This document shows positions 89-4,665 of a DNA stretch of 61,359 nucleotides, piece after piece (the stretch's first letter is position 1; each line of letters begins with the position of its first letter). A program made the position numbers and the translations under genes. The notes below the pieces were generated by a model. It made no database searches. It was given only the letters and a program-made list of their open reading frames with translations, and had not been told where the DNA came from. The stretch is from Pelotomaculum sp. PtaU1.Bin035 (GTDB lineage Bacteria > Bacillota > Desulfotomaculia > Desulfotomaculales > Pelotomaculaceae), in the NCBI GenBank assembly GCA_002067965.1, contig MVRN01000059.1, positions 1 through 61,359 of the forward strand, in the 5' to 3' direction.

Positions 89-2916
89 CTAAACTAAATA
101 TCCGCCGTGGTTTGTGATGTCTTCAATAGCCATAAGGATCAATTTCGTCTTGTTGTTCGATCCAACAATCCGGCGGGCATTGACCAGCATCTTTTTGCAG
201 CCGATATTCGGAAAATCATGAATGACTTCGAAGCCTTCAAATATAGTTTCATTATGGAGAATGTCTTCCAAAAGGACACGCAGGCCGGGGATATTCCACT
301 GTTCATTCCCCAGATCGAATACACTCTTGTCCGCGGTTTCTTCTGGTGTAACCAAGAAGGTCTGATAGAAAGCTTTATTCACCGACTTAACATGCAAATT
401 GGCGTCGAGGATCAGGAGAGGCTCACGCACAGTCTCAACGATCGCTTCCGCATATTCCCGTGCCTCATCGGATAATGCGAGGCTTTTTTTGATCTTATCA
501 ATATCTGCATATGTAATAACAACGCCATCTATTTTGTTCTCCAAGGTCCTGTAGGGGCGTATTTGCACGGAATACCAGCGGCCATAACGGTCTTGCACTT
601 CCTCTTCTGTGCTGATCAGGGTATCGATCACTTCCAGGATTGCTTGCTCTAAATCATAGTTGTTGAAATTTGTGTTGATATCGGTAATAGGCCGCCCGAC
701 GTCAGTGGCAATCAGGTTGAATACTTTTTCCGCCGCGGGGTTAAAGCGACGGATATGCAAATTATTGCTGAGCATGACGACTGGAATATTGATGCTGCGG
801 AACAGATTAAACAAATCACCGCTGATTTTACCCAATTCATTGTTACGGTTTTGCACTTCATCGTTTAATGTCATCAATTCTTCATTGGACGATTGAAGCT
901 CTTCCTTGGCGGTTTCCAGTTCTTCATTCATGCTTTGCAATTCTTCGTTGCTTGACTGAATTTCTTCGTTGGCAGCCCGGAGTGCCTCATTAGTAAACTC
1001 ATGTTTTTCAATAACGCATTGAAGATATTCTTTGGTAGCAATAAGTTCATGTTCCAATCTGATCAGTTCGCTATTTTCGCACCCCCTTGCCGCTTGTTCC
1101 AGTCCAGGCGCAGTGCTTCCGGCATTATTCTCCTCGGGCATAGCTTGAGGGACAACTTTCTCAAACAATACCAGGAAGTATTTTTCTTTGCTATGTGGCT
1201 TCCCGATGGGTATCACGTCGACATCGACACGGTTGGCTTGCCCATTGTAGCGTCCCTGAAGCTGGTTCGAGAAAGGCCCCGGTACGGCCTCGGAACTGGA
1301 TAATTTCCAGGTCACTATTAATAATCACTCCAGGCGGGGCATGTTGACCGAGGACAATACGGTTGGCTTCTTCTATTACATTAAATTTCAAATTAGCGCC
1401 AGGGCTGCTCCGGCTGATCTTCTCGCGGTTTTCTATTGTCGACGCCACATATTCGCTAGCGGTAAATTCGGGTAATAATGGGGTTGGAACGGCTTTTTTC
1501 GAATAGACCTTGTACTTTTTGTCATCTAAATTAAACAAGTTTGCATAGGCGCCGATGGATTCCGAAGACCCCAGGAAAAGAAAACCTTTCTGCTTGAGAG
1601 CATAATGAAAAACCGGGAAAAGCTTTTTTTGCATTGCCGGCCCGAAATAAATAATCGCGTTCCGGCAGCTGATCAGGTCCAACCGGGAGAAAGGCGGGTC
1701 CTTGACCATGTCGTGCTTTGCGAAAATGCACATATCACGGATAGTCTTACTGATCTGGTAGCCGCCGTCCACCTTAACAAAAAAGCGCCGGAGACGCTCA
1801 AATGAAACATCAGTATTAATGTTTTTCGGATATATGCCTGCCCGTGCCTTATCGATGAGAATTTCATTTATATCCGTGGCAAAAATCTGTATTGGAGTAT
1901 TGACAGCATCATCCCCCAAAAACTCCATCAATATTATTGCTATTGAATAAGCTTCCTCGCCTGTTGAGCTCCCTGCCACCCATATCCTGACCGGCTCATC
2001 AGGCGCCCTGTCTTTCATAATTACCGGGAAGGCCAATCTTTTTAAAGTCTCAAACGCCTGAGGATCCCGGAAAAAGCTAGTGACATTAATCAGGATGTCT
2101 TGATATAATGCCTCAACTTCCGCCGGGTTTTTCCTCAGGTAATCGACATAATCACCCACTTTCTCTATTTTGTGCAGGGCCATCCGCCGCAATGTGCGCC
2201 GCTGTATGGTTAATTCCCTATACTCGGAGAAATTTGTGCCGCTGGTTTTTCTCAGTATAGTAAAAATTTGTTTTAGTTCATCGGCGCTGGTAGTAAATAT
2301 TTTCCGGGGATCTGCTATTTTGGTCCCATAGATGCTAGAACGGGCGATTCCTGCCAGTTCATATGCTATTTCTTCCGGGGATAAGATAAAATCAACGCTA
2401 CCGGTAGCGATAGCATTGAGCGGCATACTGTCGTACTTTGCCGTTTGTGGTTCTTGGGCAAAGGTAATACCTTCAAAGCTTTTTATCTCTTTCAGTCCTT
2501 TGGAACCGTCCGCAGCTGTACCTGATAATATTACACCTATCGCGTTACTGCCTTGATCTTTTGCCAGTGATTCCAAAAAATAATCAATCGGCATAAAATG
2601 TCTCGCAGTATCTTCCCGCGGCACAAGGTCCAGGATTCCTTGAGATAATGTCATGAATTTATCAGGTGGAATGATATAGACGTGGTCAGGTTCCACAACC
2701 ACTTTATTTTCCACTTCGCTGACTGGCATAGGGGTAACCTTGGAGAGAATGCCGGCTAACGCGCTCTTGTGATTGGGGTCCAGGTGCTGAACAAGCACGA
2801 AGGCCATGCCGGTATCACTGGGCAGCTTTTCAATTAGCCGCGTAAAAGCTTCGAGACCCCCGGCGGAGGCTCCGATTCCGGCAATCGCGGGGGTTCTTTC
2901 CGGAACTGTTCATCAT
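89..2916 (-). pseudogene. CheB-CheR-PAS fusion gene, broken at two points
   Basis: The intact family fuses a CheB-type methylesterase, a CheR-type SAM methyltransferase, a coiled coil and PAS domains in one signalling protein. Reading leftward, the start is ATG 2916-2914 behind GGAGG. The CheB active-site serine motif GIGASAGG and VLVQHLDPNH follow, then CheR (RIWVAGSSTGEEAYS), a coiled coil rich in SNEEL repeats (about 850-1050), and two PAS-like segments. Two lesions are visible. First, a run of five G (2889-2893) puts the start out of frame with GIGASAGG; four G would restore MMNSSGKNPAIAGIGAS. Second, around 1253-1260 the text jumps from AFLEPASG directly to RYNGQANRVDV in another frame, so the linker usual in this family, roughly 35 residues, is missing. 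The first lesion could be a sequencing error. The second looks like a real deletion. Function is probably lost. Confidence 0.8.
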
Positions 2917-3463
2917 TGGTGAATCCTCCAGCTATGTTTGAACTGTTTTTCTCTGTCAACGTCCTCATCCCATCTTTCCGAGTGATAACCCGTTATTATA
3001 CCTTTACCCTATCCAAGCCTTATTCAACAAGATTCCATAGGTCACTTTCTAAGCATCAGAATGGATTCTTTTTCATAAAAATAACCAGCCGGGATAAATC
3101 TCTTTATGTTTTTGCAATTGATTCATGTATTTGACAGACACGTGCAGATTACCTTTAGAGAAAAAGTTGAATTTCGCCTAAAGTAATTTTATTTTCAGCA
3201 CTTCAATTGACTGCCTAATCAAAAAAGGGATGGAGTTAATGAAATAATTCTAATAATTACCATATGGAATAGACGGAACTTATAGTACCAAACAATATTA
3301 ATTAAGGGTACAAAATACTATACAATTCAATGTCTGGAGGGTACTTTTTAGAATACAAAAGTGATAATATGGAATTTGAAACTGTAGAATTTTGTTCAGT
3401 GGCTAAAAGCTAAAACATCATATATACTATTGGTAATTCATTGAGGTAAGGAGATGTTGAATT
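2917..3463. other. Long AT-rich gap without a recognisable gene
   Basis: No open frame here resembles a known protein. An AT-rich inverted repeat (TTACCTTTAG at 3149-3158 with CTAAAGTAA at 3178-3186, then TTTTATTTT) could be a weak terminator. TTGACA at 3131-3136 has no convincing -10 partner. On the minus strand TATAAT (complement of 2996-3001) could serve the broken chemotaxis gene, but no good -35 was found. The length suggests a lost gene. Confidence 0.4.
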
Positions 3464-3523
3464 ATGTACAAAACAACGGATATTGTAGTCATTGCCTATA
3501 ATAGGGAGGTGTGTGTAAAATAA
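3464..3523 (+). CDS. Possible 19-residue leader peptide upstream of rsgA
   Basis: ATG 3464 follows AAGGAGA (3448-3453) and encodes MYKTTDIVVIAYNREVCVK before TAA. Its last codons run over GGGAGGT (3504-3510), the left arm of the first hairpin in front of rsgA, so translation would disturb that hairpin. Alternatively it is the decayed start of a FAD/NAD-binding protein, since TDIVVI resembles the first beta strand of such folds, but no GxGxxG follows. The evidence is position and ribosome site only. Confidence 0.35.
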   Translation: MYKTTDIVVIAYNREVCVK

Positions 3524-3574
3524 AATAAACACATGGGACCTCCCAAAAAATGATTTAATCATTTTTTTAGGAGG
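3504..3574 (+). promoter_or_regulatory. rsgA leader with two mutually exclusive hairpins
   Basis: ACCTCCC (3538-3544) can pair in two ways. Hairpin A pairs it with GGGAGGT (3504-3510). Hairpin B continues it into AAAAAATGAT (3545-3554), which pairs with ATCATTTTTT (3558-3567), and lets CCTCC (3539-3543) pair with GGAGG (3570-3574), the Shine-Dalgarno sequence of rsgA. Hairpin A would free the ribosome site and hairpin B would hide it. This is read from complementarity alone; no folding energy was computed. Confidence 0.45.
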
Positions 3575-3582
3575 AAACAATA

Positions 3583-4665
3583 TTGTTGGATAATATCTTA
3601 AAAAAATACGGTGTCAGCGGACGTTTTTTACAAGAGGCAGCTCTATATCCTGATTTGTTCATTGGCCGTATTTGTTCGCAATACAAGGATTTGTATAAAG
3701 CAGTTACCCATCAGGGGGATGTTTCCGCGGAAATATCCGGTAAGCTCCGGTACGTGGCGGCCCGCTTATCCGATTTTCCCGCGGTTGGGGATTTTGTGAT
3801 GCTTGACCGTAGTGACAATGAATATGGAAACGCGATTATTCACCATGTTCTTACCAGAAAGAGCTCCTTCGAGCGTAAGGCGGTGGGAACGGAAAATGAT
3901 ATTCAGGTAGTCGCGGCAAATATTGACACGGTATTTCTTTGTATGGCACTGAATAATGATTACAATCTGCGGCGGCTGGAGCGTTACCTTTCGATCGCGT
4001 GGGACAGCGGGGCCGTTCCCGTGGTTGTGCTGACCAAATCCGACCTTTGCTCTAACTTGCATAATAGGCTGTCAGAGGTCTCGTCAGTGGCAATTGGTGC
4101 GGATGTCCTGGCCACTTCGGCTATGTCTGAGGAAGGATATAAAAATATTCAGTCTTATATTCAACCGTGGAAAACTGTTGCCTTCATTGGTTCCTCGGGT
4201 GTGGGCAAGTCTTCATTAATTAATCGCTTGGCGGGTAGGGAAATTCTGGAGACCCGCGAAATCCGCAAAGACGATAAAGGCAGACATGCTACTACACGCA
4301 GACAATTACTGGTTCTGCCAAACGGCGGTATTGTCATTGATACGCCCGGCATGAGAGAGTTGGGTGTGGAAAGCGTTGATTTATCAAGAGCATTTGCGGA
4401 TATTGATCAGCTGGCTGAGCAATGTAAATTTAGTGACTGTTCTCACCAAAGCGAGCCGGGGTGTGCGGTGAGAAGGGCTATCCAAAAAGGTGAGCTTACG
4501 GATAAACGGTTGGAAAACTACCTAAAGCTTCAAAAAGAAGCAAAATACGGTGGACTAAGCTCAAAACAAATTGAAACAGAAAAAATTACCGCTATGTTTT
4601 CCAGTATGGGCGGTTTGAAAAACGCCAGGAAATTTATTAAAGCACAAAGCAGGAAAAAAAGATAA
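3583..4665 (+). CDS. rsgA: Ribosome small-subunit-dependent GTPase RsgA
   Basis: RsgA is a circularly permuted GTPase that binds the 30S subunit late in its maturation and checks the decoding centre. The protein has 360 residues, with an OB-fold-like N-terminal region, then the permuted G motifs: G4 TKSD (about 151), P-loop GSSGVGKSS (about 203) and G3 DTPGMRE (about 253). A C-terminal zinc-binding segment follows, with cysteines and histidine in CKFSDCSHQSEPGC (from about 284). The start is TTG 3583, eight bases after AGGAGG. It stands alone between its unusual leader and a terminator, so it seems to be its own transcription unit. Confidence 0.93.
   Translation: MLDNILKKYGVSGRFLQEAALYPDLFIGRICSQYKDLYKAVTHQGDVSAEISGKLRYVAARLSDFPAVGDFVMLDRSDNEYGNAIIHHVLTRKSSFERKAVGTENDIQVVAANIDTVFLCMALNNDYNLRRLERYLSIAWDSGAVPVVVLTKSDLCSNLHNRLSEVSSVAIGADVLATSAMSEEGYKNIQSYIQPWKTVAFIGSSGVGKSSLINRLAGREILETREIRKDDKGRHATTRRQLLVLPNGGIVIDTPGMRELGVESVDLSRAFADIDQLAEQCKFSDCSHQSEPGCAVRRAIQKGELTDKRLENYLKLQKEAKYGGLSSKQIETEKITAMFSSMGGLKNARKFIKAQSRKKR

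Follow-up and report, generated by a model that had tools for sequence, protein, structure and literature searches.

Introduction

In translational attenuators of the Erm/Cat type, an upstream open reading frame (uORF) and mutually exclusive hairpins keep the Shine-Dalgarno sequence (SD) of a resistance gene hidden until a drug stalls the ribosome. The leader described here resembles these attenuators in its uORF, its mutually exclusive hairpins and its hidden SD, but it precedes a gene for a paralog of the GTPase RsgA (here RsgA2), its motif is [E/D][I/S]V, and it contains only three RNA segments, so that the untranslated leader is predicted to be partly ON. In vmlR of Bacillus subtilis, a stall on the uORF likewise alters RNA pairing and exposes the SD, but regulation is mainly by transcription attenuation and the gene encodes an ABCF protein (PMC9226507). 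The Escherichia coli toiL/topAI leader also controls access to the SD through a uORF and senses several classes of ribosome-targeting drugs, but with a different RNA and peptide and in front of a toxin-antitoxin gene (PMC12121999).

In Listeria, hflXr (lmo0762) encodes a duplicated ribosome-associated GTPase and has its own uORF attenuator, while a second HflX homolog has no part in resistance (PMC6310831). HflXr is the closest biological parallel to the RsgA2 leader, from which it differs in that its leader acts by transcription attenuation through a terminator and carries the macrolide motif RLR, and in that HflXr is a ribosome-splitting factor (PMC6310831). An RsgA paralog of Streptomyces coelicolor, SCO6149, belongs together with 16 GNAT acetyltransferases to the tetracycline-induced WblC regulon (PMC7157823). 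This WblC/WhiB7 response is induced by antibiotics and, as in our system, brings together an RsgA paralog and GNAT acetyltransferases, but it is transcriptional and depends on one activator (PMC7157823), whereas the genes described here are each preceded by a leader of their own. Induction of SCO6149, which was not placed in our tree, would fit a role of RsgA2 in translation stress. In the literature searched, which excluded subscription literature, no paper was found that links RsgA with its own leader peptide or uORF.

The gene behind the leader

The window, i.e. the whole stretch of 61,359 nucleotides from Pelotomaculum sp. PtaU1.Bin035 that was analysed, carries on its forward strand a TTG-initiated gene (3583..4665) for an RsgA-family GTPase of 360 aa. 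The protein scores 163 bits against TIGR00157 (cut-off 100) and 167 bits against PF03193. Its GTPase (G) motifs and Cys/His motif are intact when aligned with E. coli RsgA, and the test for family membership, a circularly permuted GTPase plus a zinc motif, is met. A PADLOC search returned only a weak P-loop match to LeoA.

A better-scoring, canonical rsgA lies on contig C90 of the same genome, and both types occur in 19 of 20 other genomes checked, the remaining one (G401) showing only the paralog. A FastTree phylogeny of 132 proteins separates the 113 paralog-type sequences, as one group with full support, from the 18 canonical copies and E. coli RsgA; branches are long, and the deep order is not relied upon. 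The separate clade and the canonical copy on C90 rule out that the window gene is the housekeeping RsgA orthologue. The switch anatomy described below was absent from the upstream regions of all 18 canonical rsgA genes examined, and many rsgA paralogs lack this leader class as well. A preliminary description had placed a translational switch in the leader of the ribosome-assembly gene rsgA; the switch held up, while the gene proved to be a paralog, with the canonical rsgA elsewhere. Since the gene is not the ribosome-assembly rsgA, the signal is likely translation stress, perhaps caused by ribosome-targeting antibiotics, rather than the state of 30S assembly.

Streptomyces plasmid-borne paralogs group inside the RsgA2 clade. 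Among plasmid-borne relatives of the paralog, one (L093) lies near the fosfomycin resistance gene fosM and another (L174) near GNAT, aminoglycoside acetyltransferase and methyltransferase genes. Two leaders stand before decayed genes: L186 (G008:C131) precedes a damaged rsgA2, with no intact gene found downstream, and L201 (G016:C7) precedes an internally deleted rsgA2 remnant of 173 aa. Divergently upstream in the window (89-2807, minus strand) lies what looks like a CheB/CheR/PAS hybrid gene. It is broken into two ORFs (89-1315 and 1191-2807) that overlap in different frames, through either a frameshift or an assembly error.

Anatomy of the leader

All leader features lie on the forward strand. 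The uORF, MYKTTDIVVIAYNREVCVK, has 19 codons and runs from an ATG at 3464 to a TAA ending at 3523, preceded by the SD AAGGAG (3448..3453). Its start and stop are kept at 52 homologous loci, where an SD also precedes the uORF. Within it lies the candidate arrest motif D-I-V-V-I (3479..3493). A likely promoter lies upstream of the leader, with a weak -35 and a -10 box TATACT (3423..3428) that is kept in 8 of 8 close relatives compared, about 35-40 nt 5' of the uORF start; other leader groups have TATACT or TATAAT at comparable positions. Since TATACT is conserved in front of the uORF, the leader and the GTPase gene are likely transcribed together, as far as sequence can tell. Inside the window leader, no promoter candidate rose above a poor match, which removes one objection that the preliminary description had raised against itself.

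The 5' arm of hairpin A, GGGAGGTGTGTGT (3504..3516), spans the codons REVCV and begins with GGGAGGT (3504-3510), within the last codons of the uORF. It folds with an inner 3' arm, ACACAT (3529..3534), and with ACCTCCC (3538..3544), for a hairpin of -16.2 kcal/mol (3504-3544). Hairpin B (3538-3574, -13.9 kcal/mol) consists of the same ACCTCCC, an A/T-rich inner stem and loop (3545..3567) and the SD of the GTPase gene, AGGAGG (3569..3574), which is separated from the TTG start by 8 nt. As 3538-3544 is common to both, pairing either with 3504-3510 or with 3570-3574, the two hairpins are mutually exclusive. The coordinates given in the preliminary description are exact to the base, and its two competing hairpins with a sequestered SD are borne out by these folds. 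The 161-nt leader folds with a z of -3.7 against dinucleotide shuffles, and GGGAGGT..ACCTCCC..GGAGG occurs only once in the window, both strands searched. No regulatory RNA family was matched in an Rfam covariance-model search of the window leader and 12 representative related loci.

A transcription attenuator with an intrinsic terminator was rejected, as the window leader has no such terminator; one is present only in a second leader class, described last.

Ribosome position and access to the SD

The 52 loci share an SD-preceded uORF, a GGAGG arm in its last codons, CCTCC and a GGAGG SD, and comprise 38 distinct leaders after removal of near-identical ones. For these 38, a ribosome was moved along the uORF in one-codon steps, and the RNA left uncovered was folded by partition function. 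Modelled SD accessibility was about 0.45 as long as the P site had not passed the acidic codon of the motif, and about 0.03 over the stretch between the V codon and the stop; depending on the front edge assumed for the ribosome (P+11 to P+15), this ON/OFF boundary shifted by roughly one codon. The difference between an upstream stall and a ribosome at the stop codon was 0.40 in the real leaders versus 0.03 when the spacer between stop and SD was shuffled. Read-through that hides the SD and an upstream stall that opens it, as first proposed from the window alone, is thus what the real leaders give and the spacer-shuffled controls do not. In five leaders (L026, L030, L087, L088 and L096) the SD was closed in every modelled state, with at most a partial opening when the ribosome is at the stop codon.

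Placing V in the P site under a 15-nt front edge was rejected as the stall position because this state is predicted to be OFF; at P+15, V, the most conserved residue, already falls in the OFF zone. The stall is therefore placed at E/D or I/S, and the model works if E/D is in the P site (or I/S at a front edge of P+11).

We consider it probable that the leader is a ribosome-mediated translational attenuator of RsgA2, a putative translation-stress GTPase; uORF translation, ribosome stalling, the identity of the inducer and the role of the protein are all inferred. The uORF would be translated constitutively, and a ribosome reading it to the end would melt hairpin A, freeing ACCTCCC to capture the SD of the gene (OFF). 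If the ribosome instead pauses at the [E/D]-[I/S]-V codons or shortly upstream of them, the GGGAGGT arm would stay uncovered, so that hairpin A sequesters ACCTCCC and the SD is open (ON); for the untranslated rsgA2 leader, a half-open SD is predicted. The likely trigger would be the slowing of a ribosome, via the nascent peptide, by an antibiotic or a comparable translation stress. RsgA2 itself would likely be induced under such stress, bind the 30S subunit and, as a GTPase, protect, recycle or re-mature ribosomes. Four features were taken as the marks of an attenuator: a short ORF that lies between promoter and gene and carries its own SD, covarying exclusive helices of which one hides the SD, a ribosome position that decides which helix forms, and a conserved stall signal at a fixed spacing to the switch. 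The first two are met, the third in the folding model only, and the fourth with a candidate signal.

The leader peptide motif

The motif [DEQ][ISL][VA] upstream of the arm was found in 32 of the 38 distinct leaders, against 2.2 +/- 1.5 expected from codon shuffles, with Glu, Asp or Gln in the first position and Ile, Ser or Leu in the second. The acidic codon lies 14-17 nt 5' of the arm in 26 of 38 leaders (0.3 expected), and its spacing to the hairpin is exactly 16 nt in 28 of the 52; the window group differs from the other leaders in that its motif stands 9 nt farther 5'. The motif serine is encoded by both TCN and AGY codons, which shows that the residue itself is kept. The remaining peptide drifts freely, with no visible purifying selection. 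Two of three groups showed no overall excess of synonymous substitutions, and the case for coding therefore rests on ORF, SD and motif and not on dN/dS. A conserved short motif in a drifting remainder is what would be expected of an arrest motif and not of a functional protein. The macrolide +x+ motif (R/K-x-R/K) is absent from MYKTTDIVVIAYNREVCVK, and the leader peptides compared contain no run of cognate codons of the kind found in amino-acid biosynthesis attenuators.

The search of 113 genomes of the class for the switch pattern returned rsgA2 leaders and, unexpectedly, leaders of GNAT acetyltransferase genes. Their peptides include MKNNKIPEIVG, MKNNNILEIVD, MKKNNTLEIVS and MKKTSRAMEIVG, each followed by a stop codon. 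In these, E-I-V comes shortly before the stop, and 17 nt separate the E codon from the arm. GNAT genes follow an E-I-V (or E-I-A) leader peptide at L180, L189, L190, L228/L248, L232, L233, L250 and L258, and the three-part SD switch is present in most of these leaders. At L258 the arm reads GAGAGG and its partner CCTCTC, and L250 has TTGG with CCAA; both are compensating changes. The same type of leader, e.g. MTKYFQEEIVR followed by a stop, precedes genes of the RNHCP zinc-ribbon family (PF12647) at L212/L235, L236 and L241, likewise with E-I-V and a distance of 17 nt between E codon and arm. In other genomes, RNHCP and an RsgA-family GTPase form one fused protein (L239, L240 and L243; the GTPase of L240 is of the paralog type), which suggests a joint function. 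The fusion is absent from the Roseburia paralog, and the literature searched contained no paper on RNHCP proteins.

An SD that would respond only to how often the leader is initiated, with less uORF translation leaving hairpin A intact and the SD open and the peptide sequence being irrelevant, cannot be dismissed but is unlikely. Its triggers would be scarce ribosomes or initiation inhibitors, as proposed for default-ON uORFs, and it gains from the ribosome-free SD, which is on average half open in the modelled rsgA2 leaders (0.33 in the window leader), as well as from the freedom of most of the peptide to vary. Against this, the conservation of [E/D][I/S]V and of its spacing far exceeds chance expectation, and the motif recurs before unrelated genes. 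Moreover, the free RNA of several GNAT/RNHCP leaders is predicted to be closed (0.01-0.44 in 8 of 9), and in the folding model it opens with the ribosome on the motif. For example, SD accessibility at L212 is 0.01 free, 0.86 with the ribosome on E and 0.01 at the stop, and at L190 0.13, 0.51 and 0.00, respectively; in some leaders the SD is predicted to open only with the ribosome on the motif. The modelled SDs of L228, L232 and L250 do not fit this behaviour.

It is quite unlikely, too, that the motif is no peptide signal at all and that its nucleotides are an RNA element that pairs with loops and tunes the switch. In the rsgA2 leaders, the motif pairs better with its native stretch between anti-SD and SD than with swapped ones (p 0.0016); with the other region tested there was no signal, and the overall picture is weaker and more mixed than in the GNAT leaders. 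There, the motif codons (GAGATTGT) pair with the loop of hairpin A (ACAATCTC), with one compensating change in L250. A ribosome on the motif would displace this competing helix, which in several GNAT leaders makes a stall there the modelled state with the most open SD. However, the partners of the motif vary from group to group, and in many cases the pairing is weak or missing; serine is kept across its codon switches, and ultrashort uORFs with EIV, VIV or AIV occur in quite different RNA contexts. Motif conservation may thus be partly at the RNA level.

Conservation and covariation of the hairpins

The attenuator that we favour requires two partners for one segment, and both pairings are conserved. 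Leaders of this class were found in relatives of the window organism, Sporomusa, Lucifera, Anaerovirgula, Fontibacillus, Proteiniclasticum and Peptoclostridium, and beyond Bacillota in one carrier, Cetobacterium (Fusobacteriota). The core GGGAGG/CCTCCC is fixed, and the inner arms differ by group yet still pair: GTGTGT/ACACAT in the window, CATAC/GTATAT in the Sporomusa group, GTGC/GCAC in Fontibacillus and GCAGAG/CTCTGC in the AESV group. Because a MAFFT alignment misregisters the inner stem between groups, energies of native versus swapped arms were used in place of covariation counts. Inner arms of hairpin A gave -5.43 kcal/mol for native versus -3.00 for permuted partners (z -7.6), and those of hairpin B -1.95 versus -0.90 kcal/mol (z -4.8), with 0 of 20000 permutations as good in either case. 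Conservation of the pairing in related leaders, named at the outset as a check, is therefore present, with compensating changes. The switch is real and ancient, and the proposed way in which it acts has good support in outline, though without experimental data.

Two stable hairpins could also act without any leader translation, as a static brake or an RNA thermometer, and the A/T-rich SD stem of the window might melt with heat. We hold this to be very improbable, as uORF start, SD, stop and peptide motif are all conserved, hairpin B of the AESV group has no A/T stem, and a thermometer has no need of a segment that can choose between two mutually exclusive partners. Chance complementarity among purine-rich SD-like sequences, GGAGG and CCTCC being common words near gene starts, is already refuted by the conservation and by the arm permutations, by the lack of the pattern at all 18 canonical rsgA loci, and by a reversed control pattern that matched 3 places in the 113 genomes versus 17 among the matches listed for GGGAGGT..ACCTCCC..GGAGG, mostly before rsgA paralogs and GNAT genes.

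RsgA paralogs are annotated everywhere as ribosome-assembly GTPases, and a conserved, stall-responsive leader would instead make one branch of RsgA inducible by translation stress, pointing to a new small-subunit ribosome-protection or rescue factor. The evidence leaves us evenly poised on the wider reading, in which [E/D]-[I/S]-V arrest peptides are a widespread family and a common sensor of ribosome stress for a small, scattered set of genes (RsgA-like GTPase, GNAT and RNHCP), and RsgA2 is an unrecognised, inducible, 30S-directed antibiotic-resistance or ribosome-rescue factor similar to HflXr. With the common motif, further genes of the response can be looked for by sequence, and the leader provides a reporter for finding the unknown inducer directly.

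Other leaders of rsgA paralogs

Some paralogs without the main leader have an ultrashort frame followed by a terminator-like hairpin before the gene. From the upstream regions of L008, L100, L025, L079 and L065 we noted the frames ATG-SVVR, TTG-VIVR, TTG-EIVL and TTG-AIVLSGTC, each closed by a stop codon; being short and picked by eye, they are treated as a lead. This second class perhaps consists of transcription attenuators.

Divergent paralogs of 45-51% identity (L114, L116, L117, L121, L132 and L115) retain ESV, DSV or EIV leader peptides with other hairpin layouts. In Listeria monocytogenes (L091), an rsgA paralog lies beside pnp and has its own uORF, MAIVKMENLIINTGVFYL, ending at a stop codon; the SD of this gene can pair with GCTCCC just upstream.
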